Below, piece after piece: positions 5,229 to 46,854 of a stretch of 47,047 bases of DNA (the stretch's first letter is position 1; every line of letters begins with the position of its first letter). This DNA is from a virus. The DNA lies in IMG/VR virus record IMGVR_UViG_3300030116_002682, positions 15,838-62,884 of that record. One strand, 5' to 3'. Below the pieces are notes generated by a model. That model had not been told where the DNA came from and searched no databases. It was given only the letters and a program-made list of their open reading frames with translations. The translations under genes and the position numbers were made by a program.

Positions 5229-5231
5229 GTT

Positions 5232-5348: not shown

Positions 5349-5758
5349 TGTGGCATTACGAAAAAAATGTAATAACAAAACAAAATGCAAATATTTTGGC
5401 AAAAAAAGATGGTTATAAATTATTTACCGATATATTAATAGAACCTATTATTAAAATTATAAAAAAAATAATACCAATCGATATTTCAAAACCAAGTTAT
5501 TGTTTAGTAGAAAGCAGAAGTAGAGGACACGATTGGCATACAGATAAAGGCACAAATAATCATATGAGCTGGTGCAAATATAGTGCCTCTATATTATTAA
5601 CTAATCCTGATAATTATAGAGGTGGATATTTTTTAACAAGGGACAAAATAATTAAAAAAGCCCATTATTTAAGTATGTTATTATACTCTAGTGATATAGA
5701 GCATAAGGTTGAATCTTTTGATGGTAATAGAAAAGCTTTATTAATGTTTTTTAAATAA
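5348..5758 (+). CDS. 2OG-Fe(II) oxygenase-like protein
   Basis: This 136-residue protein shows the double-stranded beta-helix oxygenase signature. 'HDWHTDKG' provides the HxD iron ligands near residues 62-64. 'DIEHKVESFDGNRKALLMFF' near the C-terminus provides the distal His and an Arg that would bind 2-oxoglutarate. It is shorter than prolyl hydroxylases but within the range of phage versions. It lies between TerS and TerL and is absent from module B. The substrate could be a virion protein or a DNA base; proximity to the deazaguanine cassette makes DNA worth considering, but nothing in the sequence proves it. Confidence 0.65.
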   Translation: MWHYEKNVITKQNANILAKKDGYKLFTDILIEPIIKIIKKIIPIDISKPSYCLVESRSRGHDWHTDKGTNNHMSWCKYSASILLTNPDNYRGGYFLTRDKIIKKAHYLSMLLYSSDIEHKVESFDGNRKALLMFFK

Positions 5759-5759
5759 T

Positions 5760-7094: not shown

Positions 7095-7498
7095 TGACTG
7101 AAGAAGAAAAATTAATGATGGCAGAGATGTTAAAAAGAGAACATAATTTATTGCAGTATCATCAAGATTCTATTAATAATAATCTTAAAATTAATGAGGA
7201 TGGTTCTCCTACAACTGTTTATATAAAAGGAGCTGTAAATCCAGAACAACCTGATAGATTATATGCCGTTCCAGGTTATGATAATAAAACAGGAGAAATT
7301 ATAGATAATGAAGATAAATTAACTGATATAGCTATAGAGAGAGGATATTTTGATGATATGCCATATACAACTAGATACCCTGATGATAGAGAATTAACTA
7401 TAGAAGAACATATGGCATTAGTAAATAAATTAAAAGAATCTATTAATAGAGATGGTGTTATGATTCAAAAAATAAGAGGAACTTATGGCAGAAACTAG
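7094..7498 (+). CDS. Hypothetical protein between TerL and portal, module A only
   Basis: This 134-residue acidic protein is not recognised. It has an N-terminal helix, a central 'VYIKGAVNPEQPDRLYAVPGYD' segment and a helical C-terminus. It overlaps the TerL stop (TAATG) and the portal start by fourteen bases, so it is translated within the packaging operon. Module B has no counterpart: there the portal start directly follows the TerL stop. That makes it a dispensable insertion. Confidence 0.7.
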   Translation: MTEEEKLMMAEMLKREHNLLQYHQDSINNNLKINEDGSPTTVYIKGAVNPEQPDRLYAVPGYDNKTGEIIDNEDKLTDIAIERGYFDDMPYTTRYPDDRELTIEEHMALVNKLKESINRDGVMIQKIRGTYGRN

Positions 7499-9437: not shown

Positions 9438-9693
9438 AAACTACGATAATATTAAATGGAAAAAGTGTACTTTTAAACCAGTAAAAGTAACAAAAAGAAA
9501 TAAATCTAATCAAGTTATAGGCGATATAAAAGAATTTATCTCTCCTTTAGACCAAAAAACGGTTATAAGTAGCCGTTCTCAATTAAGAGAGTTTGAGAGG
9601 AGAAATAATGTTAGGCAAGTAGGTAATGATTATACAAGTTCTACAAAACCTAAATTTTGGGACTCAATGATTAACAAATATAATAAGGGATAA
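9424..9693 (+). CDS. Conserved small structural-operon protein, module A
   Basis: This 89-residue basic protein is conserved in module B (44463) with shared blocks 'DNIKWKKCTFKPVKVTKR', 'ISSRSQ' and 'DYTSSTKPKFWD'. I chose the ATG at 9424 rather than 9409 because the homologue starts with the same MSY. It overlaps the portal stop. Function unknown; its position between portal and scaffold suggests a head-assembly role. Confidence 0.75.
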   Translation: MSYSKNYDNIKWKKCTFKPVKVTKRNKSNQVIGDIKEFISPLDQKTVISSRSQLREFERRNNVRQVGNDYTSSTKPKFWDSMINKYNKG

Positions 9694-9697
9694 TATA

Positions 9698-10840
9698 ATG
9701 AACCAAGAAAGCACTCCTACACAGGAACCAGCACCAGAAGCTCCAGCAACTAATGAACCTGCAACTTTAGATGCAGTATTAGAGGGAGCTATTAATCAAA
9801 CTTTTGAAGGTGGCGAAAAAGAAGCCCCAGAAACTAACAATGAAACACCAAAGGAAGAAGTAGAAAATACTACTATTCCTGATGCTCCCAAACAAGTGGA
9901 GAATACTAATTCCGAAGAATCTGATTCTGAATCATTAGACCAGGTAGCACCTGAAAATGAGGAAGAAGCAACAGATTCAAAAGAAGAACCTTCTGAAACA
10001 GAAGGGAGTGAGGCTTCGCAAGAACCACCTCTAGAAGCTCCTAGAAACTGGTCAGAAGATGTAAGAAGCAAGTTTAATAATTTACCTCGTGATGCACAAG
10101 AGTATATGTTAAAGCGAGATAAAGAAATGACTGCCGACTACACACGAAAGACGCAAGAAGTAGCCGAACAACGCAAAAGTTATGAATCATTAGATAAAGT
10201 TATTGCTCCAATGAGACAGCATATAAATGCAAGTGGTGTGGGAGAAGCAGAATATATTTCCAGATTACTTAATGCAGATATGGCACTCAGAAATAACCCA
10301 AAAATGGCACTCAAGCAATTAGCACAAGGTTATGGTATTGAGCTTTCATCAATAAATGAAGACACTGTGAATTGGAATGAGTCCGATACACAAATCTCCC
10401 AATTACAACAACAGAATCAAGCAATTTTAGCTGAATTAAATCAGTTTAAAAGGCAAAATCTGGAAAGTCAAAGGGTACAAACAGAAAATCAAATTAGTAA
10501 TTTTGCAAATGCTAAAGATGATAAAGGTAATTTAAAATTTCCTCATTTTGAAAAAGTTAGAGTAAAAATGGGCAATCTAATAGATGCTAAAGAAGCAAAA
10601 GGATTAGAAGATGCCTATACTAAAGCTGTTCGTTTAGATGATGATTTATATAAAGAGTCTTTAGAAGCACAAAGAAAAAGTGCTAAAGCTGAAGAAGATG
10701 CAAAAAGGAAAGCTGCAGTTGAAAAGGCTAAAAAAGTTAGACCTAGAGCTACAGGTAATCCTACAGGAGGAACTGTTAAATCCACAGACCTAGATTCTTT
10801 GCTTATGGAATCAATTAATAAAGCTGGAGTGCAGAAATAA
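9698..10840 (+). CDS. Capsid scaffolding protein, module A
   Basis: This 380-residue protein has a very acidic, Pro/Glu/Ser-rich first 110 residues. A 'NWSEDVRSKFNNLPRDAQEYMLKRDKEMTADY' block follows, then long Gln-rich coiled-coil helices, and a Lys/Arg-rich C-terminal segment ('KRKAAVEKAKKVRPR') that would contact the capsid protein. This charge layout plus its place just upstream of the capsid gene is typical of podovirus scaffolds. The acidic N-terminus differs most from module B, whereas the rest is well conserved. Confidence 0.85.
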   Translation: MNQESTPTQEPAPEAPATNEPATLDAVLEGAINQTFEGGEKEAPETNNETPKEEVENTTIPDAPKQVENTNSEESDSESLDQVAPENEEEATDSKEEPSETEGSEASQEPPLEAPRNWSEDVRSKFNNLPRDAQEYMLKRDKEMTADYTRKTQEVAEQRKSYESLDKVIAPMRQHINASGVGEAEYISRLLNADMALRNNPKMALKQLAQGYGIELSSINEDTVNWNESDTQISQLQQQNQAILAELNQFKRQNLESQRVQTENQISNFANAKDDKGNLKFPHFEKVRVKMGNLIDAKEAKGLEDAYTKAVRLDDDLYKESLEAQRKSAKAEEDAKRKAAVEKAKKVRPRATGNPTGGTVKSTDLDSLLMESINKAGVQK

Positions 10841-10876
10841 TGTTGGGGATTAACTTTTAAATAATGAGGTATAAAA

Positions 10877-11836
10877 ATGGCAAGTCCAAATAGTACTTTT
10901 ACCGAAATTGTTACAACTACTCTTGCTGGGTATTCAAAAACCCTTGCAGATAACGTAACTAACGGTAATGCCTTACTTCGTCATATTGATGGAAAGGGCA
11001 ACAAACAAGTAGCCACTGGTAGAACTATTGTGCAAGAATTAGAATATGCAACTAACTCAACTGCAAAATGGTATAGTGGTTATGAAGTATTAGACACATC
11101 TACATCAAATGTATTCACTGCAGCAGAGTTTAATTATAAGCAATTAGCTGGTAACGTGGTTATATCTGGTTTAGAACAGGTCGAAAACTCCGGTAAGGAA
11201 GCAATCTTTAACTTACTTAAATCAAGAGTTAGAAATTTAGAAAAAACTCTTAAAAACACAATGGCTACAGGTCTATATGCTGACGGAACTGGCACAGATG
11301 GAAAAGAGCTAGGTGGTTTACAGTTAATTGTTCCTGGAACTAACACTAATACTGTTGGTGGTATTTCAGCGAATACTTATACTTTTTGGAGAAATCAGGT
11401 TTATGATTTTTCTGCACAATCACCTTCTGTTACTCCTAGTGCTACAACTATTCAGACAGCGATGAATACATTGTGGTTAAACACAGTTAGAGGAGCAGAC
11501 CACCCAGACTGTATCGTAGCAGACAGCACTTACTTTCAATATTATTGGGCATCTTTACAGACTAATCAAAGATTTACTAGTGATGATAAAGCAAGTGCAG
11601 GATTTATGAACTTAATGTTTATGGATGCTCCTGTCTATTATGATGACCAATGTCCAGCAAGTAAAATGTATATGCTTAACTCGGACTATTTATTCCTTCG
11701 TCCAGCTCAAGGTAGAGAATTTTCTCCTTTGGGTGAGAAGGCTTCTGTTAACCAAGATGCTATGGTGTTGCCTGTAGTATGGGCAGGAAATATGACCTGT
11801 TCAAACAGAGCAAGACAAGGCGTCATACAAGCATAA
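10877..11836 (+). CDS. Major capsid protein, module A
   Basis: This 319-residue protein resembles marine podovirus HK97-fold capsid proteins. Features are 'NALLRHIDGKGNKQVATGRTI', 'YATNSTAKWYSGYEVLDTS', 'GLEQVENSGKEAIFNLLKSR' (spine-helix region) and 'MVLPVVWAGNMTCSNRARQG' at the end. It is nearly identical to module B's protein at 45892 over the first 140 residues and diverges in the 'TNTNTVGGISAN' loop region. The ribosome site precedes the ATG ('AATGAGGT'). Confidence 0.9.
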   Translation: MASPNSTFTEIVTTTLAGYSKTLADNVTNGNALLRHIDGKGNKQVATGRTIVQELEYATNSTAKWYSGYEVLDTSTSNVFTAAEFNYKQLAGNVVISGLEQVENSGKEAIFNLLKSRVRNLEKTLKNTMATGLYADGTGTDGKELGGLQLIVPGTNTNTVGGISANTYTFWRNQVYDFSAQSPSVTPSATTIQTAMNTLWLNTVRGADHPDCIVADSTYFQYYWASLQTNQRFTSDDKASAGFMNLMFMDAPVYYDDQCPASKMYMLNSDYLFLRPAQGREFSPLGEKASVNQDAMVLPVVWAGNMTCSNRARQGVIQA

Positions 11837-30099: not shown

Positions 30100-30460
30100 T
30101 ATCTTCCTCCTTGTTATATGGGCTAGCATTCCAAACTTTTTGTACTGTAAGAATACCAAACCTTGAATTAAAAACTTCTTGTTGAAAAAAATTGTATTCG
30201 TTACCGAGCATATGTAATTCTCTATGATGTTTTTCACATAAAGGAATTACATCTTTATCTCCAGCTCGTAATCCCATACCTCTAGCTGAATAGAAAGGTT
30301 TTAATAAATGATGAGCTTGTATTATATTATACTCACCACACTTAGATGGGTTTGTTGGTGCTATACCAGCCATTTCTAAATTTTTAAAATGTGTTTTGAT
30401 ACAGCACTCTAAACTAGCTACCCATTCCAAGTGTTTTCTATTGGTATACCTTTTTGGCAT
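30011..30460 (-). CDS. HNH-type protein (DUF968/Ref-like)
   Basis: This 149-residue protein has 'HLEWVASLECC', 'IIQAHHLLKPF' and 'VIPLCEKHHRELHMLGNE', which give the Cys and His cluster of an HNH/treble-clef nuclease of the Ref/DUF968 type common in phage recombination modules. Its Lys/Arg-rich tail overlaps the next gene by 89 bases in another frame. It probably acts in DNA recombination or processing with the exonuclease upstream. Confidence 0.7.
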   Translation of the reverse strand: MPKRYTNRKHLEWVASLECCIKTHFKNLEMAGIAPTNPSKCGEYNIIQAHHLLKPFYSARGMGLRAGDKDVIPLCEKHHRELHMLGNEYNFFQQEVFNSRFGILTVQKVWNASPYNKEEDNDRRKKANAKRISAKTFGRKQKNKSTRST

Positions 30461-30930
30461 TAATAGCTATTTCCTTCATCTAATGCTTTGTGCGTAGCTA
30501 CTACACCATTAAAATAATTATCTAAAATAAATTTTAATTTTTGTGAAGGTGTCCAATCTGATTGTCTGTTAACGCAACTTTGCAGCACTATAAGATAATC
30601 TTTAGGTGTCATTGTTGGCCTTACATCTTCTCCACCTTCATAAACTTTATTTATTACTTTTGCTTGTGGAAATGCTTGTTTAATCTCTGGTGGCATATCT
30701 GCGTTTACATCTTTAATAGGTTCAAACTTATTAATCCACTTATTACCAAACTTGTCTGGTGAAAAATCTACTTCTATGTTATCGCCTTCTTGTACTTGTG
30801 CTATACCACTTTTTGCATTTGCAAAATATTTAATACCAGAAGTTGTTGTAATTCTATAAGACTTTCTACCATTTGGATTTTCTTCCGTTGGTTGAGTGGG
30901 TGCTTCTAGCTTACTAACTGTTATCTGCAT
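30460..30930 (-). CDS. OB-fold-like protein, possible ssDNA-binding protein
   Basis: I chose the ATG at 30930 (156 residues) because AAGGAG sits just upstream. The first 70 residues look beta-rich with an OB-like alternation ('KSYRITTTSGIKYFANAK', 'VQEGDNIEVDFSPDKFGNKWINKF'). The C-terminal half is helical. It is encoded between the exonuclease and HNH genes, where phage ssDNA-binding proteins often lie. The assignment is tentative. Its leader forms a strong predicted pseudoknot (30949-31015), as is known for the T4 gene 32 mRNA. Confidence 0.45.
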   Translation of the reverse strand: MQITVSKLEAPTQPTEENPNGRKSYRITTTSGIKYFANAKSGIAQVQEGDNIEVDFSPDKFGNKWINKFEPIKDVNADMPPEIKQAFPQAKVINKVYEGGEDVRPTMTPKDYLIVLQSCVNRQSDWTPSQKLKFILDNYFNGVVATHKALDEGNSY

Positions 30931-30948
30931 TATATTCTCCTTATTGGG

Positions 30949-31015
30949 TGGCATTGTATAAAAGGGTAAGAAGCTAACCAAAACCCCAACAATGCCATAA
31001 TTAATAAAGCTTCTT
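30949..31015 (-). promoter_or_regulatory. Predicted H-type RNA pseudoknot upstream of OB-like gene
   Basis: Two perfect helices interlock. TGGCATTGT (30949-30957) pairs with ACAATGCCA (30989-30997). AAGAAGCT (30968-30975), in the loop of the first helix, pairs with AGCTTCTT (31008-31015). A further GGGT/ACCC pair (30964-30967/30983-30986) extends the first helix. It fills the gap between the exonuclease stop (31022) and the ribosome site of the 30930 ATG. It could control translation of that gene. Confidence 0.6.
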
Positions 31016-31021
31016 TTAACA

Positions 31022-31804
31022 TTATTTCTTACTCTTTAAGAAATTATGTATCTGCAAATAGTTTTTCCATATTTGCAAATCCTCTACATAGCTATCTATA
31101 TCATAAAGGTGTTCTCTTATTTCCTTAGTTTCTTTATCTATAGCCACGATTAATCTATTAAATGGTTCTCTGCCTAGTTCATTACAAAGTGCATACATAT
31201 AGCCACATAATTGTATTCGCCATAATTTGCCACTTGATTTCTTAGTTACTGTTTTCCAATCTACTAAACATTCACCATATTTTTTATGCTCTATCCAACA
31301 ATCAAACTTTCCAGCATAAGGCAATACACTATTGTCATATACCAAATATTCAACTGCGTGTACTTTTCTAATATTAGAATTTAAATATTCATACATTGGA
31401 TATTGCATAAGTCTTATCTCATTATCTTGTTTGCTATGACCTTTATGATACCCAGTTTCTGCCATATTACCTCTAAGATAACTTTCTATAAAATTATGTA
31501 TAATAGTCCCTATCATAGCTTGGTTTGTCCATTTTTTTTCTGCTAGCTTTTTAATATCAAATAGCTTTTCTTGTAAGTCGGTAAGGTCATTTACTCTTAA
31601 CAAACCAGAATTAGGTAATTCTTCTACCAATGTTTCTAAATAGTTTTTGCGACCAGCCATAGCACCAATGCCAAAGCCATCATCTCCTTTTATTATACCA
31701 CTGACACTTGATGGTGATATTTTTTTACCATCGTCATTAACATAATATCTGTGGTTGCCTTCACTAAATTTAATCTCAATATTTTTAAACTTTCTAATCT
31801 CCAT
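31022..31804 (-). CDS. PD-(D/E)XK exonuclease-like protein
   Basis: The 260-residue form from ATG 31804 is preferred, as it starts MEIRKFKNIEIKFSEGNHRY, a common opening of phage Cas4/RecB-like exonucleases. Catalytic features are 'LPYAGKFDCWI' (Asp) and 'GECLVDWKTVTKK' (Asp and Lys of the D-x-K core), then 'WRIQLCGYMYAL' helix with Gln. It probably makes single-stranded DNA for recombination with the OB-like and HNH proteins. Confidence 0.75.
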   Translation of the reverse strand: MEIRKFKNIEIKFSEGNHRYYVNDDGKKISPSSVSGIIKGDDGFGIGAMAGRKNYLETLVEELPNSGLLRVNDLTDLQEKLFDIKKLAEKKWTNQAMIGTIIHNFIESYLRGNMAETGYHKGHSKQDNEIRLMQYPMYEYLNSNIRKVHAVEYLVYDNSVLPYAGKFDCWIEHKKYGECLVDWKTVTKKSSGKLWRIQLCGYMYALCNELGREPFNRLIVAIDKETKEIREHLYDIDSYVEDLQIWKNYLQIHNFLKSKK

Positions 31805-34833: not shown

Positions 34834-35739
34834 TTAAGCTACTTCCTTTTTTTCTTTAGGTTGTAAATTATTAAGAAAATCTATTGCTTGTGTACTCTTA
34901 CTAAAAGCTGTAAATATTGCTTTTGGATTATTTTGTATAATCTGTTTCCAACAATTTAAATATTTAGCGTGGTCTGGTGTTGGCTGTTTTACTACACCCA
35001 ACATTACACTAAGAATAGCTGAACCAGTTTCTGCTACCAATTCCTCCATAGCATATTCTTTGCTCATATAACCTTTCTTAAAATTTCTTTTACATCTACT
35101 ATCGTGTCCAGTCCAGTGTACTAATTCGTGTAGTAAAGTACTGTACCAATGAGCACTAGCAGTAGCTGTCTTTGTATTCTTAAAGTATTCCATACTTGGC
35201 ATATTTATGTAATCCAATACAGGTGAATAACAGGCTCTTGTCCCACCAATCTGAACCTCTGCTTTTGTATTCTTAATATATTCTTCTACTTTAGCTATTG
35301 GATTGACTTTATTGGTTAGCTTTGGCTTTGGTAATTCTACACCATCAACTTGATAGATATTAAAAACATTCCATATTTTTAAGAACCATCTGCTTTTTAT
35401 TTCTGGCTCGCCATTTGTATCTAAGCTATTTTTGTCTTCGTACTTTTTTAACTCCCAATAAAACACCCTTGTAGATTTTTCTCCTTTCTTAACTTTACCT
35501 CCAAGCTGTGTCCATTGTTTATAAGTTGCCCAAGCATTATGGACATATCCTTTCTTATAACTAGCTAAAGACAACCAGAAAATATTAAATCCAGTATAAT
35601 GTTTTTTAGTAGCATAGTTCATTGGAAAACTCTTACTCATTACATCTAACCAAGGCTTGTCCCAGTTAGTACCAAATTTATCCATATCTGCCAAGACTTG
35701 CTCTTGTACCTCTTTTATTATATTAGCTGTATAACTCAT
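34834..35739 (-). CDS. ardC: ArdC-like antirestriction protein
   Basis: This 301-residue protein has an N-terminal ArdC ssDNA-binding domain ('WDKPWLDVMSKSFPMNYATKKHYTGFNIFWL', about residues 25-55). A C-terminal zinc metallopeptidase-like domain has 'LLHELVHWTGHDSR' (HExxH-type) and a downstream Glu in 'AMEELVAETGSAIL'. ArdC proteins protect incoming DNA from restriction. Expression early from P1 fits that role. The length is normal. Confidence 0.85.
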   Translation of the reverse strand: MSYTANIIKEVQEQVLADMDKFGTNWDKPWLDVMSKSFPMNYATKKHYTGFNIFWLSLASYKKGYVHNAWATYKQWTQLGGKVKKGEKSTRVFYWELKKYEDKNSLDTNGEPEIKSRWFLKIWNVFNIYQVDGVELPKPKLTNKVNPIAKVEEYIKNTKAEVQIGGTRACYSPVLDYINMPSMEYFKNTKTATASAHWYSTLLHELVHWTGHDSRCKRNFKKGYMSKEYAMEELVAETGSAILSVMLGVVKQPTPDHAKYLNCWKQIIQNNPKAIFTAFSKSTQAIDFLNNLQPKEKKEVA

Positions 35740-37243: not shown

Positions 37244-37855
37244 ATGAACATAGAACAAGTAGATATAAATAAAATAAAACCTTATGAAAAAAATAGTAGA
37301 GTACATAACGATAGCCATATAAAGCAAGTATGTAAAAGTATAGAAGAATTTGGTTTTGTTAATCCTATTCTAGTAGATAAAAGATTTACTATTATAGCTG
37401 GCCACGGTAGATATATGGCAGCAAAAAAATTGGGATTTGAAAAAGTGCCTTGTATAAGAATAAACCATTTTAGTGAAGAACAAAGAAAAGCTTATGTAAT
37501 AGCTGATAATAAATTATCTTTAAATTCGTCTTGGGATACTGAAATGCTTTTACAAGAAATGAGTGATTTAAAAGATATGGGTTTTGATTTAGATATAACT
37601 GGCTTTAGCAGTATAGAACTTATGCCAGTATTAGAAGATAATGTAGTAGATAATCCTATGGCAGAATGGGACGATATGCCAGAATACGAACAAGAAGATT
37701 TAAGACCACATAGAACTATCTATGTCCATTTTAGAAATGAAGAAGATGTTCATGCTTTTTTTAAAATTATGCACCAATCATTTACACCACAAACTAAAAC
37801 TATATGGCACCCAAAGCTAGTGCTTATGGAAAATAAAAATAAAAGGTATGAATAA
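37244..37855 (+). CDS. ParB/sulfiredoxin-fold protein, module B
   Basis: This 203-residue protein has the ParB/Srx domain with 'IKPYEKNSRVH', 'IIAGHGRYMAAKKLG' and 'AYVIADNKLSLNSSWD'. The C-terminal domain contains 'DMPEYEQEDLRPHRTIYVHFRNEEDV' and 'TKTIWHPK', which occurs in ParB proteins linked to phage DNA modification. It is unlike the C-terminus of the module A homologue. It overlaps the glycosyltransferase by eight bases. It may guide or activate base modification. Confidence 0.8.
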   Translation: MNIEQVDINKIKPYEKNSRVHNDSHIKQVCKSIEEFGFVNPILVDKRFTIIAGHGRYMAAKKLGFEKVPCIRINHFSEEQRKAYVIADNKLSLNSSWDTEMLLQEMSDLKDMGFDLDITGFSSIELMPVLEDNVVDNPMAEWDDMPEYEQEDLRPHRTIYVHFRNEEDVHAFFKIMHQSFTPQTKTIWHPKLVLMENKNKRYE

Positions 37856-38720
37856 ATATCCAATCTATATACCTAGCAAAGGCAGGTATGAAAAAAAATT
37901 ACGGACTACTTCTCTATATTTAGATGAAATAAATGTACCTTACAAATTAGTAGTAGAGCCAGATGAGTATGATAAATACTTAAAAGAAGTTAAAGATAAA
38001 TCTAAGCTAATGGTTTTAGATATGGCATACAAAAAAAAATATGATACTTGTGATAATTATGGTACAAAAAAATCTACTGGTAGTGGACCAGCTAGAAATT
38101 TTATTTGGGATTACGCAAAAAAAAACGGCTTTAAATATCATTGGTGTATGGACGATAATATTAGAAGCTTACAAAGAATTACTAAGAATAGAAAAATAAC
38201 AGTAAGTAATCCTATTATTATAAAGCTTATGGAAGATTTTGTAGAACGATATAAAAATGTTGCAATAGCTGGACCACAATATGATTATTTTCACCCATCT
38301 GGTGTAGTAAAAAAACCATTTAATGTTAATGCTAGAATCTATAGTTGCTTATTAATAAATACTGACATACCTTTTAGATGGCGAGGTAGACATAACGAAG
38401 ATACTATACTTAGCTTAGATGTTTTAAAAGATGGTTGGTGTACTATTCTATTTAATGCTTTTCTACAACAAAAGCAAACTACAATGACAATGAAAGGTGG
38501 CAACACAGAAGAATTTTATAAAGATAGCAGTAGGTTATATGTTTCTAAGCTTTTACAAAAAGTACACCCAGATTATACTAAAGTTGTAAAAAGATATAGA
38601 AGGTGGCATCACCAAGTAGATTATTCTAGCTTTACACAAAAACTTATAAGAAAAGAAAAGCTAGTAAAAAAAGGTCATAACAATTATGGTTTAAAACTGG
38701 TAACAAAGAAATATGGATAA
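37848..38720 (+). CDS. GREB1/TAGT-like glycosyltransferase
   Basis: This 290-residue protein has a GT-A-like pattern. 'YPIYIPSKGRYEKKLRTTSLYLDEINVPYKLVVEPDEYDKY' opens the nucleotide-sugar fold, 'GSGPARNFIWDYAKKNGFKYHW' follows, and 'MDDNIRSL' (residues about 101-108) is the metal-binding DxD-like motif. A basic C-terminal 70 residues follow. This matches the TET/JBP-associated glycosyltransferase group described from computational work on phage DNA hypermodification. No TET/JBP oxygenase is in module B. The likely acceptor is a modified base in DNA, but this is inference. Confidence 0.7.
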   Translation: MNKYPIYIPSKGRYEKKLRTTSLYLDEINVPYKLVVEPDEYDKYLKEVKDKSKLMVLDMAYKKKYDTCDNYGTKKSTGSGPARNFIWDYAKKNGFKYHWCMDDNIRSLQRITKNRKITVSNPIIIKLMEDFVERYKNVAIAGPQYDYFHPSGVVKKPFNVNARIYSCLLINTDIPFRWRGRHNEDTILSLDVLKDGWCTILFNAFLQQKQTTMTMKGGNTEEFYKDSSRLYVSKLLQKVHPDYTKVVKRYRRWHHQVDYSSFTQKLIRKEKLVKKGHNNYGLKLVTKKYG

Positions 38721-39678
38721 TTTTTTTAAAATTAAAAATAAAAACTTATTATCGGTATGCCCACCAGATGTAAATGAAATAGACTGGCAAAATTTTAGAA
38801 AAGATTTTAAAAAAGCAGATAGCTTAAATGATATTGGGCACCCTATACAACTAGATATAGAATTAAATGGTGGTTGTAATATGAGCTGTCCATTTTGTTT
38901 ACATGGGTATAAGAAAACTAAAAATATAAATTTACCTATAGAAGATTTTAAAAATATAATACATCAAGCAATAGAGTTAGGAGTAAAAAGTATTAAATTT
39001 AATTATATAAACGAACCTATGCTTAGAAAAGATTTAGAAGAATGTATAAAGTATGCTAAAAGCAAAGGTATATTAAATGTATATATGGTTACTAATGGAA
39101 CAGTACTAAATAAAAAAAGAAGATTATCTTTATTAGCTAGTGGTATAACAAAAGTTTTTATATCTTTAGATGCTGCAACAAAAGAAACTTATGAAAAACA
39201 AAGATTATCTGGAATGTTTGAAACTGTAAAAAATAATATAAAAGAATTTATAAAATTAAGAAACAGCCAAGGCAAAAAATTTCCATTAGTAAGAGTTAGT
39301 TTTCTAAAAAATTCTATAAATATACACGAAAAAGAAGATTTTGAAAAACAATGGCAAAATATAGCAGATATAATAAACTTTCAGACTATGAACGAAGTAC
39401 CAGATGTAAAAACTGGTCTTTTAGTAGAAAAAAGTATTGTACCAGATAAAGGTTGTAGCTTTCCATTTAAACAAATGGTAGTTGACCATCTAGGCAATAT
39501 ACAACCTTGCTGTAAATTAGAAGGAAAAAAACTTATTGTTGGCAATATTAAAAAAATGTCACTAAAAGAAGCTTGGAATAGTAAAAAATTTACTAATTTA
39601 CGAAAAATACACAAAAATAATGACTGGAAAAAACATTCCATTTGTTATAAATGTATGGTACCAAACGAAAATGGATAA
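38713..39678 (+). CDS. Radical-SAM/SPASM enzyme
   Basis: This 321-residue protein has 'ELNGGCNMSCPFCLHG' (CX3CX2C cluster, about residues 55-62) and 'FNYINEPMLRKDL' for the SAM region. The C-terminal SPASM-type part has Cys in 'KGCSFPFKQMVVDHLGNIQPCCKLEG', 'VGNIKKMSLKEAWNSKKF' and 'SICYKC'. It overlaps the glycosyltransferase by eight bases and the TerS start by eight. SPASM proteins modify peptides or sugars. In this locus it may act on the base or its sugar. Module A has queE in the comparable place, but the two are not orthologous. Confidence 0.8.
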   Translation: MDNFFKIKNKNLLSVCPPDVNEIDWQNFRKDFKKADSLNDIGHPIQLDIELNGGCNMSCPFCLHGYKKTKNINLPIEDFKNIIHQAIELGVKSIKFNYINEPMLRKDLEECIKYAKSKGILNVYMVTNGTVLNKKRRLSLLASGITKVFISLDAATKETYEKQRLSGMFETVKNNIKEFIKLRNSQGKKFPLVRVSFLKNSINIHEKEDFEKQWQNIADIINFQTMNEVPDVKTGLLVEKSIVPDKGCSFPFKQMVVDHLGNIQPCCKLEGKKLIVGNIKKMSLKEAWNSKKFTNLRKIHKNNDWKKHSICYKCMVPNENG

Positions 39679-40078
39679 AATGAAAGATACTGGCAGACCA
39701 AACTTTGAAAAAACACCTGAAATGGAAAGAATTTGTTCTTTAGGCGTTGCTTTCGGCTTAACTCACGAGCAAATTGCAAAATTAGTTGGGTGTAGCCCTA
39801 AAACTTTACGAAAACATTTTCAAAATGCGTTAGAAACTGGTAAAGAAAAATTAACTATGGCTATTGGAGGTCAATTGTATAAAAAAGCTATGAATGGCGA
39901 TACAATTTCTGCAATTTTTTTAGCAAAAACTAAAGCTGGATTTACAGAAAAAGTAGAACACGAAGGTTTACCAAATAATATATCAGTAAGCTTTAATTTA
40001 GAGCCAGAAAAAAAAATTGTTGACGCAGAAAAAGTATTAGATAAAATAACTCACAAAAAGGGTAGTGATGGCAACTAG
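39671..40078 (+). CDS. terS: Terminase small subunit, module B
   Basis: This 135-residue homologue of the module A TerS shares 'CSLGVAFGLTHEQIAKLVGC' with its HTH, and 'KLTMAIG' and 'AISAIFLAKTKAGF'-type blocks. I prefer ATG 39671 (or 39680) to the upstream ATG at 39620, as the alignment to the 4848 gene begins at 'GRPNFEKTPEMER'. The 3' end overlaps the next gene by eleven bases. Confidence 0.75.
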   Translation: MDKMKDTGRPNFEKTPEMERICSLGVAFGLTHEQIAKLVGCSPKTLRKHFQNALETGKEKLTMAIGGQLYKKAMNGDTISAIFLAKTKAGFTEKVEHEGLPNNISVSFNLEPEKKIVDAEKVLDKITHKKGSDGN

Positions 40079-40253
40079 AAAATTTAAAAAAGTACCTAAA
40101 ACAAAAAGTGGTGTTCCTAAGTCATATATTAAAGGAGCAAAAAATCCCAAAGCTAGAGAAAGAGAAATAAATAGAACTAAAAAATTATATAAAGCAGGTA
40201 AGCTAACACCAGCTATGATGAATAGAATTAGTAAACAAAGGAGTAAAAGCTAA
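40068..40253 (+). CDS. Small basic protein 1 of TerS-TerL cassette
   Basis: This 61-residue Lys-rich protein (MATRKFKKVPKTKSGVPKSY, then GAKNPKAREREINRTKKLY) belongs to a family I have seen in marine phages. It is not present in module A. It overlaps TerS and abuts the next gene (TAATG). Function unknown; a nucleic-acid-binding role is plausible. Confidence 0.7.
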   Translation: MATRKFKKVPKTKSGVPKSYIKGAKNPKAREREINRTKKLYKAGKLTPAMMNRISKQRSKS

Positions 40254-40510
40254 TGCCAAGTTTTAAAGGTATACCCGGAGCTAGTAGATTTTCACAATCT
40301 ACATTAAATAAAGTTTATAAAAGAGGATTAGGAGCATACTATAGCAGTGGCTCTAGACCAAAAGTTTCTGCACCCCAATGGGCTATGGGACGAGTAAAAA
40401 GTTTTGTAACTGGTAAGGGTGGTGCAAGAAAAGCAGATGCAGATTTATTAAGAGGTGGTAAAAAAACTACAGCTAAGAAAAAAACAACAACCAAAAAAAA
40501 GAAAGGATAA
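40253..40510 (+). CDS. DUF5824-like small basic protein
   Basis: This 85-residue protein has 'NKVYKRGLGAYYSSGSRPKVSAPQWAMGRVKSFVTGKGGARKADADLL', which I associate with DUF5824, then a Lys/Thr tail of KKTTTKKKKG type. The family is found next to packaging genes in several phages. Module A lacks it. Confidence 0.7.
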   Translation: MPSFKGIPGASRFSQSTLNKVYKRGLGAYYSSGSRPKVSAPQWAMGRVKSFVTGKGGARKADADLLRGGKKTTAKKKTTTKKKKG

Positions 40511-40514
40511 TATT

Positions 40515-40637
40515 ATGCCCGGATATGGATATGGTAAAACAAGTAAGAAGATGAACAAAAAACCTACTATGAAAAAAAAAGTAAGAATAGTAATGGGAAA
40601 CAAAAACAAAAAAGCTAAAAAGAAAATGAGTGCATAA
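40515..40637 (+). CDS. Small basic protein conserved in both modules
   Basis: This 40-residue protein carries KKKVRIVMGNKNKK, matching the 38-residue ORF at 5232 of module A. I chose ATG 40515 (MPGYGYGKTSKK) rather than the upstream 40455 because it follows the previous stop. It is the only member of this cassette that A retains. Confidence 0.65.
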   Translation: MPGYGYGKTSKKMNKKPTMKKKVRIVMGNKNKKAKKKMSA

Positions 40638-40807
40638 TGAAAGGAGTTAAACATTATAAAAGAGATGGAACACTTTTTAAAGGCAACACACATAAGATGC
40701 CTAATGGTGATTTACACTCTGGTAAAACTCATGGCAAGACAAGTGTAAAACTTTTTCATTTTAGTGAACTTTCTAAAAGAGCAAAAGCAAAAGCAAAAAA
40801 AGGTTAG
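40637..40807 (+). CDS. Small basic protein 4 of cassette
   Basis: This 56-residue protein reads MKGVKHYKRDGTLFKGNTHK, then MPNGDLHSGKTHGKTSVKLF. It is a Gly/His/Lys-rich family I have seen in marine phage genomes. Its start overlaps the upstream stop (TAATG). Function unknown. Confidence 0.65.
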   Translation: MKGVKHYKRDGTLFKGNTHKMPNGDLHSGKTHGKTSVKLFHFSELSKRAKAKAKKG

Positions 40808-40809
40808 TA

Positions 40810-41064
40810 GTGTCAATTAATCATAGAGGAGAAAAATTTTCTGGTGTTAATAAACCAAAAAGAACACCCAACCACCCAACAAAATCACACGCAGTGCTAG
40901 CATCAGAAAATGGTAAAAAAAAATTAATACGATTTGGTCAACAAGGAGTAAGTGGAGATAAAAAAAACACAGCTCGTTCTAGGTCATTTAAAGCAAGACA
41001 CGCAAAGAATATATCTAAAGGAAAAATGAGTGCAGCATATTGGGCAAATAGAGTAAAATGGTAA
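40810..41064 (+). CDS. DUF6321-like small basic protein, GTG start
   Basis: This 84-residue protein has 'KRTPNHPTKSHAVLASENGKKKLIRFGQQGVSGDKK', 'SFKARHAKNISKGKMSAAYWANRVKW', the DUF6321 pattern known from many phages. The start codon is GTG (40810). It overlaps the next gene by seven bases. Function unknown. Confidence 0.7.
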   Translation: MSINHRGEKFSGVNKPKRTPNHPTKSHAVLASENGKKKLIRFGQQGVSGDKKNTARSRSFKARHAKNISKGKMSAAYWANRVKW

Positions 41065-41189
41065 AAAAAGGATTATACGCAAATATAAATGCTAGAAGAA
41101 AAAAAGGTATTAGTAGAAGTAAATCTAAATCTACTATTAGTCCTAAAGCTTATGCAAAAATGCGAAAAGGGTTTAACAAAAAAAAGTAA
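41058..41189 (+). CDS. Small basic protein 6 of cassette
   Basis: This 43-residue protein (MVKKGLYANINARRKKGISR, then SKSTISPKAYAKMRKGFNKK) resembles a widespread small phage protein family beginning with 'KKGLYANI'. Its stop overlaps the TerL start (TAATG). Function unknown; it may bind DNA or RNA. Confidence 0.7.
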   Translation: MVKKGLYANINARRKKGISRSKSKSTISPKAYAKMRKGFNKKK

Positions 41190-42523
41190 TGCACATAACA
41201 ATTCCTTATACACCCAGACCACAACAAGCAGACTTACATAAAAATAATAAACGATTTAAAATTTGTGTATCACACAGAAGATGGGGTAAATCTGTTTATG
41301 CAATAACTGAAATATTAAGAAAAGCATTAGAAATAAAAACAGAAAGAAATGATGGTAGATATGCTTACATAGCACCTTACTATCGACAAGCAAAAGCTGT
41401 GGCTTGGGATTATTTAATGTATTATACAAAAGATATTCCCGGTACAAAAATAAATCAATCTGAACTTAGAGTAGATTTAATAAACGGAAGTCGTATTAGA
41501 TTATATGGTGCAGGTGATGACCCAGATGCTCTAAGAGGAATTTTTTTAGATGGGTGTGTTTTAGATGAGTACGCTGACATGTCTCCTAGAATGTGGAGTG
41601 AAGTGATACGACCTGCGTTAACAGATAGAAAAGGTTGGGCAATATTTATTGGCACACCAAAAGGTAGAAATCAATTCTGGCAATTATACGAAGATGCAAA
41701 AAATGATAACGAATGGCATAGAGCAATCTATCGTGCTAGCGAAACTGGAGTAGTTGACCCAGAAGAATTAGAAGCTGCAAAAAAGCAAATGGGAGAAGAT
41801 GAATATATGCAAGAATTTGAATGTAGCTGGTCTGCTGCAATTAAAGGTTCTTATTATGGTAATTTAATTACAGAAGCAGAACAAGATGGCAGAATTAGAA
41901 AGTTAGAAATAGACCAATCTTTACCAGTACATGTTGCTTGGGATTTAGGAATATCTGATAGCTGTGCTTTATGGTTTTTTCAAGTAACAATGGGGGAAAT
42001 AAGAATTGTTGATTATTATGAAAGTGCTGGTGTAGGTCTAGACCATTATGTAAAAGTAATGAATGAAATGAATATAAATTTTTGGGGTGATGATTATTTA
42101 CCTCACGATGCTAAAGTACGAGAACTAGGTACAGGTAGAACAAGAGCAGAAACTTTAATTAATATGGGTAGACGACCACGCATAGTACCAAGCCATAAAG
42201 TAGACGATGGAATAAATGCTGTACGATTATTGTTGCCAAAATGTTATTTTGATGATAAGAGATGTGAAAACGGATTAAATGCTTTGAGAAATTATCAAAG
42301 AGAGTGGGACGACACAAAAAGAGTATTTAGAAGAAATCCTTTGCATAATTGGGCATCTCATGGCAGTGATAGTTTTAGGTATTTAGCTATGGCATATAAA
42401 AATATTAGACCAGAACCAAAAAGCAAAGATGTATATAAAGAAATGTTGCGTACACCTACTTTAGATGAAATGTTGGATATGCACGATAGAGAACAAAGAA
42501 ATAAACCAGAGAGAAGAATTTAA
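41189..42523 (+). CDS. terL: Terminase large subunit, module B
   Basis: This 444-residue ATPase-nuclease has the same length as module A's TerL. Walker A 'HRRWGKS' (29-35), Walker B 'GIFLDGCVLDEYADM' and nuclease 'HVAWDLGISDS' are intact. Its nucleotide sequence differs from A at many third positions (GGT here, GGA there). Its stop overlaps the portal ATG directly, without the extra gene present in A. Confidence 0.95.
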   Translation: MHITIPYTPRPQQADLHKNNKRFKICVSHRRWGKSVYAITEILRKALEIKTERNDGRYAYIAPYYRQAKAVAWDYLMYYTKDIPGTKINQSELRVDLINGSRIRLYGAGDDPDALRGIFLDGCVLDEYADMSPRMWSEVIRPALTDRKGWAIFIGTPKGRNQFWQLYEDAKNDNEWHRAIYRASETGVVDPEELEAAKKQMGEDEYMQEFECSWSAAIKGSYYGNLITEAEQDGRIRKLEIDQSLPVHVAWDLGISDSCALWFFQVTMGEIRIVDYYESAGVGLDHYVKVMNEMNINFWGDDYLPHDAKVRELGTGRTRAETLINMGRRPRIVPSHKVDDGINAVRLLLPKCYFDDKRCENGLNALRNYQREWDDTKRVFRRNPLHNWASHGSDSFRYLAMAYKNIRPEPKSKDVYKEMLRTPTLDEMLDMHDREQRNKPERRI

Positions 42524-44466
42524 TGGCAGAAACTAGAAAAGAAATGGAAGTTGTTCAAGGAACTGCTAATTACTGGCAGATAGAATTAGATAGTGCAGAT
42601 GAAACAGAAAGAGATTGGAGAGAAAGAGGTAGAGCGGTAGTATCTCGATATAGAGATGAAAGAGATGCTGATTCTTTTGGTGCTGGTTTATATAAACAAT
42701 TTAATATTTTATGGTCTAACACAGAAACTATGAAAGGTGCATTATTTGCTCGTATGCCAAAAGCAGATGTGCGTAGAAGATATAACGACAATAATCCCAT
42801 AACAAGACAAGTAGCTATCGTATTAGAAAGAGCATTATCTTATGGTAACGAAGTTTACCACGCAGATAAACCAATAAAAGCTGCAATAGAAGATTATTTA
42901 TTACCGGGCAGAGGAGTTGTTTGGGTAGTATACGAACCAATTTTTGTTAAAGAAAAAGTATCAGTAGAAGGACAAGACGAGTTCGGTAATACTATAATGA
43001 TAGACGAAGAACAAGAGAGAATAGCAGACCAGAGATGTTATTTTGAATATGTTAATTGGGAAGACTATAGAGAAAGTCCAGCAAAAAGACCAGAAGATGT
43101 TTACTGGAAAGCTAGAAGGCATTTATTAACTAGAGATGAATTAATCGAAAAAGGTTTTAAAAATGCTAATAAGATACCTTTAAACTGGTCGCCAGAACCT
43201 ACAGAAGGTTACCAAGAAGATTATTCAGAAGTATTTAGTAGAGCAGAAGTTTGGGAAATTTGGGATAAATACACTTCTAAAAGATTTTTTATATCTAAAG
43301 GGTATAACGAAGTTTTGGCAGAAGATGATGACCCTTATGGATTAGAAAATTTTTTCCCATGTCCAGATTCTCTAGTAGCAATAAGAACAAACGATACAAG
43401 TGTTCCTATTCCAGAGTTTACATTATATCAAGACCAAGCAGATGAATTAGATAGAATAACAACTAGAATTAGTAACTTAATAGAAGGTTTAAAAAGAAGA
43501 GGAGTGTATGATGCTTCTGTACCAGAACTATCTCATTTAGCAGATGCTGGAGATAATGATTTTGTACCTTCAGAAAATTTTGCTCAACTTGCAGCTAAAG
43601 GAGGATTGAGTGCAGTTTTTCAACAAGAAGATATAGCCCCTATAGCACAAGTTTTATCAGGTTTATATCAACAAAGAAATCAAGTATTAGATACAATATA
43701 TCAAATTACTGGAATATCTGATTTAATCAGAGGTTCTACAAAAGCTAGTGAAACTGCTACAGCACAACAGTTAAAAGCACAATTTGGTAGTATGCGTATG
43801 CGTAAAAAACAATCTGAAATAGCTGAATATATAAGAGATTTATTTAGAATAAAAGCAGAAATTATAGCAGAACACTATGAACCAGAAAGTTTAGCTGCAA
43901 TTACAGCTCTCACTATAACACCAGAAATGATGCAAATAATGCGTGATGATAAACTGAGAGGATATAGTATAGATATAGAAACAGATGCAACTGTATTTAC
44001 AGATGAAGAAGAAGAAAAGAAAACAAGAATAGAATTTTTGCAATCGTTTGGTGGTTTTTTAAATCAAGCAATAGGTATAGCTAATCAATCTCCAAGTTTA
44101 ACACCTTTAGCTTTTCAAGCACTTAGATTTTTAATGGGTGCTTGGAAAGTAGGAAGAACTTTTGAAGATGTAATAGACCAAACAGAAGCACAGCTAATGC
44201 AACAAGCACAACAAGCATTACAAGCTGGACCTCAGCCTACAGAAAACGAAAGAATAGCTATGCAAAAAATGCAAACAGAAATGGCAAAAGAAAGATTAAA
44301 ACAAGAAGGTAAGCTAGCAGATATTCAAGCTAAAGAAAGAGGAATGGCAAACAAAGTTGCTTCAGAAGAAGAATCAAGTCGTGCTAGGTCAGAAGCTAAA
44401 AAAGAATTAGCTTTACTAGATGCAGATATGAAAATAGCAGAAAAATTAAATCAAGGTATGCAATGA
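42523..44466 (+). CDS. Portal protein, module B
   Basis: This 647-residue portal is homologous along its length to the A portal at 7485. Shared blocks include 'YKQFNILWSNTETMKGALFA' and 'SMRMRKKQSEIAEYIRDLFR'. The region after the 'FVKEKVSVEGQDEFGNTI' loop is one of the most divergent. The start is coupled to TerL (TAATG) and the end overlaps the next gene by four bases. Confidence 0.9.
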   Translation: MAETRKEMEVVQGTANYWQIELDSADETERDWRERGRAVVSRYRDERDADSFGAGLYKQFNILWSNTETMKGALFARMPKADVRRRYNDNNPITRQVAIVLERALSYGNEVYHADKPIKAAIEDYLLPGRGVVWVVYEPIFVKEKVSVEGQDEFGNTIMIDEEQERIADQRCYFEYVNWEDYRESPAKRPEDVYWKARRHLLTRDELIEKGFKNANKIPLNWSPEPTEGYQEDYSEVFSRAEVWEIWDKYTSKRFFISKGYNEVLAEDDDPYGLENFFPCPDSLVAIRTNDTSVPIPEFTLYQDQADELDRITTRISNLIEGLKRRGVYDASVPELSHLADAGDNDFVPSENFAQLAAKGGLSAVFQQEDIAPIAQVLSGLYQQRNQVLDTIYQITGISDLIRGSTKASETATAQQLKAQFGSMRMRKKQSEIAEYIRDLFRIKAEIIAEHYEPESLAAITALTITPEMMQIMRDDKLRGYSIDIETDATVFTDEEEEKKTRIEFLQSFGGFLNQAIGIANQSPSLTPLAFQALRFLMGAWKVGRTFEDVIDQTEAQLMQQAQQALQAGPQPTENERIAMQKMQTEMAKERLKQEGKLADIQAKERGMANKVASEEESSRARSEAKKELALLDADMKIAEKLNQGMQ

Positions 44467-44726
44467 GTTATAGAGATAATTACGATAATATTAAATGGAA
44501 AAAATGTACTTTTAAACCAGTCAAGGTAACTAAAAGAACAAAATCACACCAAGTTATGGGTGATATACAAGAATTTGTGTCTCCAATTGACAGAACTGTT
44601 ATAAGCAGTCGTTCTCAAATAAGAGAACACGAAAGGAAACACAATGTCAGGCAGTGTGGAAATGATTATACCAGTTCTACAAAACCTAAATTTTGGGATA
44701 AAATGATAAACAATGAAAGAGGATAA
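44463..44726 (+). CDS. Conserved small structural-operon protein, module B
   Basis: This 87-residue homologue of the gene at 9424 keeps 'DNIKWKKCTFKPVKVTKR' and 'DYTSSTKPKFWDKMIN'. Conservation between modules and its fixed slot between portal and scaffold suggest a needed head-assembly function, still unknown. Confidence 0.75.
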   Translation: MSYRDNYDNIKWKKCTFKPVKVTKRTKSHQVMGDIQEFVSPIDRTVISSRSQIREHERKHNVRQCGNDYTSSTKPKFWDKMINNERG

Positions 44727-44727
44727 A

Positions 44728-45855
44728 ATGACAGAACAAAGCACTCCTACACAGGAATCAGCACCAGAAAAAGCACCAAATTTAGATGCAGTTTTAGAAG
44801 GTGCCATAAATCAAGTTATGGATAATAGCGAGGCACCACCACCTGCAGAAGAAAAAGAAAAACCATTACCTGACACTCCACAAGAAAAAGTGGAAGAAAC
44901 CAATTCTGAAGAATCTAATTCTGATTCATTAGACCAGGTAGCTCCTGAAAATGAAGAAGAAACAAAAGATTCTACTGAAGAACCTTCTGATGAAATAGAT
45001 GATGCCGCTGTGGCTCATGTTCAAGGAGAGGATTCGAAAGAACCTCCTTTACAAGCTCCTAAGAACTGGTCAGAAGAAGTAAGAAGTAAGTTTACGGAAT
45101 TACCTCGTGAAGCTCAGGAGTATATGCTTAAACGAGATAAAGAAATGACTGCTGATTACACACGAAAGACACAAGAAATAGCTGAACAACGCAAAAATTT
45201 TGAATCATTTGATAAAGTTATAGCTCCAATGAGACAGCAAATTGCAGCAAGTGGTATTAGCGAACCAGAATATATAGCTAGATTACTTAATGCTGACTTA
45301 GCACTCAGAAATAACCCAAAAATGGCACTCAAACAACTAGCACAAGGTTATGGCATTGACCTTTCGTCTTATGACAGTGATTCTGTTGAATTAGAAACAG
45401 ATTCGCAAATTTCCCAATTACAACAACAAAACCAAGCAATCCTTGCAGAACTAAATCAGTTTAAACAACAAAATCTGCAATCTGCTAGACAACAAACGGA
45501 GAATCAAATTAACACTTTTTCTCAAACTAAAGATGATAAAGGTAATTTAAAATATCCACATTTTGACAAAGTAAGAGTTAAAATGGGTAATTTAATTGAT
45601 GCTGGTGAAGCAAAAGGATTAGAAGATGCTTATGCTAAAGCAGTAAGATTAGATGATGAATTATACAAAGAATCTTTAGATGCACAAAGAAAAAGTGCTA
45701 AAGCAGAAGAAGATGCAAGAAGAAAAGCGGCAGTAGAAAAAGCTAAAAAAGTAAGACCAAGAACAGCGACTGCTCCACCTTCAGGCTCTGTTAAAGCTAG
45801 TGATTTAGATACATTGTTAATGGATTCAATTAGTAAAGCAGGAGTTGTAAAGTGA
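44728..45855 (+). CDS. Capsid scaffolding protein, module B
   Basis: I chose ATG 44728 (375 residues), which aligns with the A start and follows the upstream stop by one base. The acidic N-terminus, coiled-coil middle and basic C-terminus match the A protein at 9698. The C-terminal 'LYKESLDAQRKSAKAEEDAR' region is nearly unchanged. Confidence 0.85.
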   Translation: MTEQSTPTQESAPEKAPNLDAVLEGAINQVMDNSEAPPPAEEKEKPLPDTPQEKVEETNSEESNSDSLDQVAPENEEETKDSTEEPSDEIDDAAVAHVQGEDSKEPPLQAPKNWSEEVRSKFTELPREAQEYMLKRDKEMTADYTRKTQEIAEQRKNFESFDKVIAPMRQQIAASGISEPEYIARLLNADLALRNNPKMALKQLAQGYGIDLSSYDSDSVELETDSQISQLQQQNQAILAELNQFKQQNLQSARQQTENQINTFSQTKDDKGNLKYPHFDKVRVKMGNLIDAGEAKGLEDAYAKAVRLDDELYKESLDAQRKSAKAEEDARRKAAVEKAKKVRPRTATAPPSGSVKASDLDTLLMDSISKAGVVK

Positions 45856-45891
45856 GTTGTGGGTCAACAATAACTTATAGAGAGGTATATT

Positions 45892-46854
45892 ATGGCAACT
45901 TCGCCTAACAGTACATTTACTGAAATCGTTACAACTACTCTTGCTGGTTATTCAAAAACACTAGCAGACAATGTAACTAACGGAAATGCTTTACTTCGTC
46001 ATATTGATGGAAAAGGCAACAAACAAATAGCCACTGGTAGAACTATTGTGCAAGAATTAGAATACGCAACAAATTCAACTGCAAAATGGTATAGTGGTTA
46101 TGAGGTATTAGACACATCTACATCAAATGTATTTACTGCAGCTGAGTTTAATTATAAACAGTTAGCTGGTAATGTGGTTATATCTGGTTTAGAACAGGTC
46201 GAAAACTCAGGAAAAGAAGCAATCTTTAACTTACTTAAATCAAGAGTAAGAAACCTAGAAAAAACATTAAACAATACTATGTCAACATCTTTGTATGCTG
46301 ATGGTACTGGTACAGATGGTAAAGAACTAGGTGGATTACAGTTGATAGTTCCGGGAACTGTTGGAAATACAGTTGGTGGTATTAATTCTACCACTTACAC
46401 TTTCTGGCAAAACCAAGTGTATGATTTTAGTGCTGCAGCAGGTTCTCCTACTGCTAGTGCTACAACTATACAGACAGCTATGAACACACTTTGGTTAAGT
46501 ACAATTAGAGGTGCTGATGCTCCAGATGTTATTGTAGCAGACACTAATTACTTCAATTTTTATTGGAGTTCCTTGCAAACTAATCAGAGATTTACTTCTG
46601 ATAACGATGCAAGTGCAGGTTTTATGAACTTAATGTTTATGAACGCACCAGTCTACTATGATGACCAGTGTCCAAGTAATAAAATGTATTACTTAAATAC
46701 TGATTATTTATTCCTTCGTCCAGCTCAAGGTAGAGAATTTACACCTTTAGGTGAGAAGGCATCTGTTAACCAAGACGCAATGGTATTGCCAGTAGTTTGG
46801 GCAGGAAATATGACCTGTTCAAATAGAGCAAGACAAGGTGTCATACAAGCATAA
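45892..46854 (+). CDS. Major capsid protein, module B
   Basis: This 320-residue capsid protein is nearly identical to the A version at 10877, with one extra N-terminal residue. Differences cluster in the 'TVGNTVGGINSTTYTFWQNQ' and 'AAAGSPTASATT' loops, as expected for a surface-exposed part. A good ribosome site (AGAGAGG) precedes the ATG. Confidence 0.9.
   Translation: MATSPNSTFTEIVTTTLAGYSKTLADNVTNGNALLRHIDGKGNKQIATGRTIVQELEYATNSTAKWYSGYEVLDTSTSNVFTAAEFNYKQLAGNVVISGLEQVENSGKEAIFNLLKSRVRNLEKTLNNTMSTSLYADGTGTDGKELGGLQLIVPGTVGNTVGGINSTTYTFWQNQVYDFSAAAGSPTASATTIQTAMNTLWLSTIRGADAPDVIVADTNYFNFYWSSLQTNQRFTSDNDASAGFMNLMFMNAPVYYDDQCPSNKMYYLNTDYLFLRPAQGREFTPLGEKASVNQDAMVLPVVWAGNMTCSNRARQGVIQA

Follow-up and report, generated by a model that had tools for sequence, protein, structure and literature searches.

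The window analysed here, a stretch of 47,047 nucleotides, corresponds to positions 15,838 to 62,884 of the IMG/VR virus record IMGVR_UViG_3300030116_002682. On its minus strand a gene for a PD-(D/E)XK exonuclease is followed by a gene for an SSB-like protein, and the leader between them carries the strands of three helices (Table 1). Read 5' to 3', the leader runs S1 5' strand, loop L1, S2 5' strand, loop L2 with GGGU, S1 3' strand, loop L3 with ACCC and S2 3' strand. Such an order is that of an H-type pseudoknot, in which the predicted helices S1 (8 bp) and S2 (9 bp) interlock and the short nested helix S3 lengthens S2. The knot spans 67 nt (30949-31015) between the exonuclease stop and the ribosome site of the downstream gene; 3' of S2 the window reads CCCAAU, then AAGGAG, then the AUG at 30930. 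The first-pass annotation had described a 9-bp helix plus GGGT/ACCC, interlocked with an 8-bp helix before this gene, and the helices lie exactly at the coordinates it gave. It had presented the 67 bases as a gap; the knot is indeed there, but the same gap is also an open frame of 30 codons, which had been overlooked.

Table 1. Features of the leader and its flanking genes in the window.
Feature	Positions	Strand	Sequence	Remarks
S1 5' strand	31008..31015	(-)	AAGAAGCU	Basis: helix and covariation
S1 3' strand	30968..30975	(-)	AGCUUCUU	Basis: covariation, duplex energies
S2 5' strand	30989..30997	(-)	UGGCAUUGU	Basis: covariation
S2 3' strand	30949..30957	(-)	ACAAUGCCA	Ends 18 nt 5' of AUG
S3 5' strand	30983..30986	(-)	GGGU	Nested within S2
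S3 3' strand	30964..30967	(-)	ACCC	Pairs with GGGU
Loop L1	30998..31007	(-)	UUAUUAAUUA	A/U-rich in all relatives
Shine-Dalgarno of SSB-like gene	30937..30942	(-)	AAGGAG	
SSB-like gene	30460..30930	(-)		156 aa; predicted OB fold (residues 1-74), linker, C-terminal two-helix segment
PD-(D/E)XK exonuclease gene, upstream	31022..31804	(-)		Stop at 31024-31022, 6 nt before S1
Open 30-codon frame across leader	30930..31022	(-)	MLKEALLIMALLGFWLASYPFIQCHPIRRI	TAATG at either end

Judged by energy alone, the fold of the window is not exceptional and is only suggestive. In two runs, 0 of 300 and 1 of 200 shuffles matched the energy of the leader, and yet among all 115-nt windows on both strands (4,694 segments) it ranked only about 10th. 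A stable nested hairpin sequestering the Shine-Dalgarno was also considered and rejected, the nested minimum free energy fold of the window leader having z = -0.59. It is the comparative evidence set out below (covariation, de novo recovery and a covariance model), rather than energy, that decides the matter and by which we regard the pseudoknot as confirmed.

Relatives were collected by five protein-based scans of viral contigs, to which we added a second copy (L036) from the same 62,884-base record. Together with the window these gave 37 loci with intact leaders, 26 of them distinct, whose proteins range from 99% down to 29-38% identity to that of the window, and the pseudoknot was found at the same place in all 37. 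When whole leaders were searched for knots de novo, no more than 2 of 200 shuffles reached the observed energy in 25 of the 26 distinct leaders. For two of them, L122 (from the contig of L092) and L127 (from the contig of L042), the best de novo knot consists of S2 and a pairing of CUCCUU with the Shine-Dalgarno, though S1 is still present. The sole exception to the de novo search is L133, in which one S2 pair is broken relative to L131. The L133 locus (IMGVR_UViG_3300004448_001270, ~2430-2520) combines this weakened knot with a stop at codon 6 of the SSB frame, and is possibly a decaying copy or the product of base-calling errors. In L036, whose protein is 61% identical to that of the window, the leader has its own pseudoknot with all helices rebuilt.

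The family appears to be one of uncultured phages. No members were found in GTDB genomes, none of four family members gave a protein match in the 50,697 phage records in which we sought cultured relatives, and a search of cultured relatives for the leader gave no convincing match. The nearest TerL proteins are those of Pelagibacter phages, at 46%; HTVC100P was considered as a cultured relative and set aside, its replication module being different by annotation.

The helices vary extensively among the leaders while remaining paired. By eye, S1 occurs as GGAGCU/AGCUCC, GGAGUU/AACUCC, GGAGUCA/UGACUCC, GAGUGAG/CUCACUC, GGAGCAAC/GUUGCUCC and CAACAAGGA/UCCUUGUUG, and S2 as UGGCAUUGA/UCAAUGCCA, UGGGGUAGU/GCUACCCCA, UGGGAUUGU/GCAAUCCCA, UGGGGUUGU/ACAACCCCA, UGGAGGG/CCCUCCA, UGUAGAGGGG/CCUCUCUACA, UGUGUAGUAG/CUACUACACA and GAAAGGGCA/UGCCCUUUC. 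S3 is found as GGG/CCC, as UGCG/CGCA (L036) or as GAAG/CUUC (L009). Outside a few short motifs, the sequence of the loops is weakly conserved.

In a MAFFT alignment of six leaders, made from sequence only, S2 was 100% paired as against 83.9% after shuffling, with a covariation score of 0.474 versus 0.155 (0 of 500 shuffles). This alignment misplaced the 5' strand of S1, and so S1 was counted on hand-cut cores. Across 13 such cores, each of the 17 core pairs had changed on both sides in a compensatory manner (68 double-changed cells), the covariation score was 0.827 versus 0.229 (0 of 500 shuffles), and 93% of cells were paired, compared with 64.5% after shuffling and 40-48% when the strands were slid. 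It is important to note that the register of these cores was itself picked by pairing; the de novo search of whole leaders, with its shuffle test, therefore serves as the independent guard against circularity. Furthermore, a covariance model (R1) built from the six close leaders recovered the leaders of distant clades in their correct position (E 9.5e-9 to 0.05), and within the 62.9-kb record gave only two convincing sites, one 5' of each SSB copy. The core cells contain 10 G-U wobbles against a single A-C, which points to a structure that forms as RNA on the mRNA strand, not as ssDNA or on the other strand.

Covariation in related phages had been proposed in the first-pass annotation as a check on the knot, with a lack of covariation or conservation as grounds for refutation, and the compensatory changes, the de novo recovery and the reach of the model all bear it out. 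The comparison thus shows an H-type pseudoknot, predicted from aligned leaders, that has been kept by selection directly upstream of a ribosome site. A fold kept through the rewriting of nearly every base is very probably a genuine control switch. Between S2 and the AUG lie 17-23 nt, with a value of exactly 18 in 9 of 14 types, so that the knot abuts the footprint of the ribosome.

In the material scanned, the element was also confined to this gene family. A DNA-pattern scan of the viral collection, blind to protein, returned 39 matches, among which the full architecture was present only in L047, L056 and L071 (the last from a distant clade), all 5' of this SSB-like family. The motif was thus found only before the SSB-like gene family and never before metabolic genes. 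No Rfam family matched the window or its relatives at the gathering score, the best sub-threshold hits having chance-level E values above 1. Measured against Rfam, the leader is a well-supported candidate for a new structured RNA element.

The protein encoded downstream had been described as OB-like, and its predicted N-terminal fold agrees. The AlphaFold model has a five-strand OB barrel over residues 1-74, with pLDDT of about 82-89 over residues 1-70, and a second run, on 17 sequences, again produced this OB fold together with two helices. Structural comparison of the model by VIA-align placed RecO, PriB, SSB (H. pylori and E. coli) and mitochondrial SSB on top (Z 8.7-8.0), the values of 8.7-8.1 for PriB and the H. 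pylori and E. coli SSBs spanning 67-70 residues. Foldseek returned mainly OB proteins, all with E above 1e-3, while the BFVD matches, mostly unnamed phage proteins and baculovirus LEF-3, were uninformative. By sequence, no Pfam family (including the curated SSB profiles) matched at E up to 1 for the window protein or up to 5 for its relatives, no PHROG family matched convincingly, no homology to gp32 was detected and no solved structure was a convincing match. The window's protein ends LDEGNSY and has no DDKIPF tail, but the distant clade ends in SEMPDDKIPF, with MPDDKIPF present in the relatives L040, L043, L090 and L092; the acidic C-terminal tip of bacterial SSBs is DDDIPF, which the DDKIPF ending matches. 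The neighbouring genes encode the exonuclease, an HNH or RusA-like nuclease, a zinc-ribbon protein and a primase-helicase. From the OB fold, the DDKIPF relatives and this neighbourhood, the prediction that the protein is SSB-like is well supported. As far as sequence can tell, the refuting condition set on nucleic-acid binding in the first-pass annotation thus also comes out in favour of its reading.

Within the family, conservation is highest not in the OB fold but in a C-terminal two-helix segment, LIVLQSCVNR...QKLKFILDNY (residues 107-148; window 30612-30487), for which no known family was matched. The phage helicase-primase or exonuclease may bind there.

The first-pass annotation had likened the leader to the control of T4 gene 32. 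This is partly supported, as a likeness of probable function: as in the T4 and RB69 gp32 leader operators, which provide the precedent (PMC535899, PMC3014915), an RNA pseudoknot precedes the ribosome site of a phage gene for an SSB or SSB-like protein, overlaps or abuts the preceding frame, and is kept despite divergence in sequence, as seen between the T4 and RB69 operators (PMC535899). The likeness does not extend to anatomy. In T4 a pseudoknot of ~28 nt is separated from the ribosome site by more than 40 nt of UUAAA-rich RNA that lacks structure (PMC535899), whereas the present knot is 67 nt long in the window (more or less in relatives), has three helices, leaves 18 nt before the AUG, without a long UUAAA tract, and contains a Shine-Dalgarno-complementary strand within S1. 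With only these 18 nt available, T4-style cooperative spreading along a UUAAA tract cannot operate. Unlike the T4-type knot, which is missing from the gene 32 leader of RB49 (PMC535899), the knot described here is kept in 25 of 26 leaders, and the protein shows no detected homology to gp32. Because the anatomy departs from that which defines the T4 operator, and because Rfam holds no match, we treat the leader as a new RNA element, apparently an independent counterpart that is analogous, not homologous, to the gene 32 operator. To our knowledge, SSBs that control their own synthesis through a leader pseudoknot are essentially confined to T4-like phages. If our reading is true, another such lineage, made up of uncultured phages from the sea, whose SSB-like protein has no detected relationship to gp32 and whose knot is built differently, would suggest that SSB autoregulation by pseudoknot arose independently. 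The set of leaders is also a deep natural alignment from which to learn how one mRNA is singled out by an ssDNA-binding protein that is sequence-nonspecific.

The pseudoknot of the S15 leader includes the ribosome site itself, whereas here the Shine-Dalgarno lies outside the knot, and both the protein and the helices are different. E. coli rpsO (S15) nevertheless offers a further pseudoknot operator in the leader of a nucleic-acid-binding protein (PMC3014915), with autogenous control that is known for S15 and that we infer here.

Two features of the leader bear on how it might act. Firstly, in every locus it is flanked by the start of the SSB-like gene and by an upstream frame, that of a PD-(D/E)XK exonuclease where scanned (window and L043), whose end adjoins S1 or falls inside it. 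In every leader the upstream stop is located about -7 to +23 nt from the start of S1, and is thus inside the footprint of a terminating ribosome. Secondly, the 5' strand of S1 often repeats the Shine-Dalgarno as AAGGAG (most close relatives read AAGGAGCU, which is Shine-Dalgarno-like), so that the 3' strand of S1, which contains CUUCUU in the window and CUCCUU in most relatives, has a second possible partner in the Shine-Dalgarno itself. In all leaders the S1 duplex (-10 to -16.9 kcal/mol) is stronger than the pairing with the Shine-Dalgarno (-6.2 to -9.5 kcal/mol), and therefore the default state should be one in which the knot is formed and the Shine-Dalgarno is free.

The interpretation towards which we lean, with moderate confidence, is that the leader acts as a cis-acting translational operator of the SSB-like gene, bound by its own product in negative autoregulation. 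Once in excess of the available ssDNA, the SSB-like protein would bind the pseudoknot and its A/U-rich single-stranded loops, and the bound protein would block entry of the ribosome at the adjacent Shine-Dalgarno. From complementarity, there may be an additional step, in which protein on L1 and the S1 5' strand opens S1, so that the CUCCUU strand becomes available for pairing with the Shine-Dalgarno AAGGAG. Given that the exonuclease stop adjoins or lies inside S1, terminating ribosomes would transiently open this helix and couple the two genes, making it possible that the operator is linked to translation of the exonuclease. Points that count against this interpretation are the weak conservation of the loops (although the T4 and RB69 operators diverge as well), the room of just 18 nt before the AUG, the want of a Pfam or PHROG family for the protein and of a DDKIPF tail in that of the window, and, for the additional step, a Shine-Dalgarno pairing that is weaker than S1 throughout and down to 4 bp in two groups.

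Such coupling could also operate without any protein, an explanation that we consider unlikely, though it deserves to be taken seriously. The knot would then set the basal translation of the SSB-like gene and link it to that of the exonuclease, with terminating ribosomes masking the S1 5' strand and CUCCUU being held either by the upstream copy of AAGGAG or by the real Shine-Dalgarno. The position of the upstream stop in every leader agrees with this, as do the best de novo knots on the L042 and L092 contigs, which use the CUCCUU:Shine-Dalgarno pair, and the fact that CUCCUU keeps its complementarity to the Shine-Dalgarno even where S1 leaves its UU unused. However, S1 is stronger than that pairing in all leaders, the L020 and L004 groups retain just 4 bp of it, and in compact phage genomes a stop is commonly found close to the next start.

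A further variant takes account of an AUG (30998-30996) formed by the last A of L1 and the first two bases of S2, which is invariant in the 16 of 16 leader types examined, although S2 otherwise turns over for the most part. The frame that it opens has 1-3 codons (M, MG, MGL or MEG) in seven types, and in the remaining types ends between -17 and +23 nt relative to the start of the SSB-like gene. Other short elements that recur are UUAG in L2 and CC directly 3' of S2; all three may represent contacts, either tertiary or with protein, or else a hidden start site. We think it rather improbable, but conceivable, that the pseudoknot hides a decoy ribosome site, made of the Shine-Dalgarno-like GGAG in S1 and this AUG, that the CUCC strand picks either the decoy or the real Shine-Dalgarno, and that ribosomes, SSB or the two together flip a two-state knot. 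If true, the leader would be a mimicry switch, not a simple repressor site.

The same short elements would also suit a receptor for a small molecule, or for a host or other phage protein. Translational riboswitches are usually compact H-type knots abutting the ribosome site, and the record contains genes of the preQ0 pathway (QueC, FolE and QueE by reading). The leader resembles the SAM-II, SAM-V and preQ1 riboswitches in being a compact pseudoknot directly 5' of the Shine-Dalgarno. It differs from them in having no conserved ligand core of the long, invariant kind typical of aptamers, in matching no riboswitch in Rfam, and in standing only before one replication gene and never before a metabolic one, making us doubt strongly that an effector other than the SSB-like protein is involved.

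We are more sceptical still of the idea that the conserved fold acts as ssDNA, as an origin, recombination or packaging site, which has been proposed for the STAXI motif (RF01728). The site does lie inside a cluster of replication and recombination genes, and SSBs do bind ssDNA. STAXI, too, is found near genes of single-stranded-DNA-binding proteins, among various DNA-handling genes, but its pseudoknots come in tandem, in twos or threes, and often have UUCG loops (PMC2864571), whereas here there is a single knot per 5' leader, with no UUCG and no Rfam match. Moreover, wobble pairs are preserved in the mRNA sense, the knot keeps a fixed position relative to the ribosome site, and there is one knot per gene copy, only 5' of the gene. 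Finally, that the helices arose by chance, or as a side effect of a short protein-coding gene in this interval, can be dismissed: the modest energy rank of the window fold and the open 30-codon frame would allow it, but compensatory changes at all 17 pairs already refute chance, and the frame is broken or shifted among relatives, is not conserved as protein and is probably no gene.

Several further observations concern the surrounding genome. The record (G000) carries two related phage gene sets end to end (window 239-11836 and 37244-46854), with genes for a ParB-like protein, small terminase, TerL (5760 and 41189), portal, scaffold and capsid each present twice in diverged form; the second SSB-like copy lies at positions 9238-9699 of the record. 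The contig thus has the look of two related phages that were joined, either by assembly or truly. Around the conserved exonuclease-SSB-primase core, nucleases have been swapped: the gene 3' of the SSB-like gene varies by clade, encoding an HNH endonuclease in the window (30460-30014) and a RusA-like/PDDEXK nuclease in L043 and L040, and L040 has an extra 401-aa gene 5' of the zinc-ribbon gene. The preQ0 (7-deazaguanine) genes, assigned by reading as QueC-like (1593-2285), GTP cyclohydrolase-like (2701-3363) and radical-SAM QueE-like (4174-4848), are absent from the second terminase-side gene set, and their presence suggests modification of DNA bases. The window also encodes, at 34834-35739, an ArdC-type anti-restriction protein with ArdcN and MPTase-PolyVal domains.
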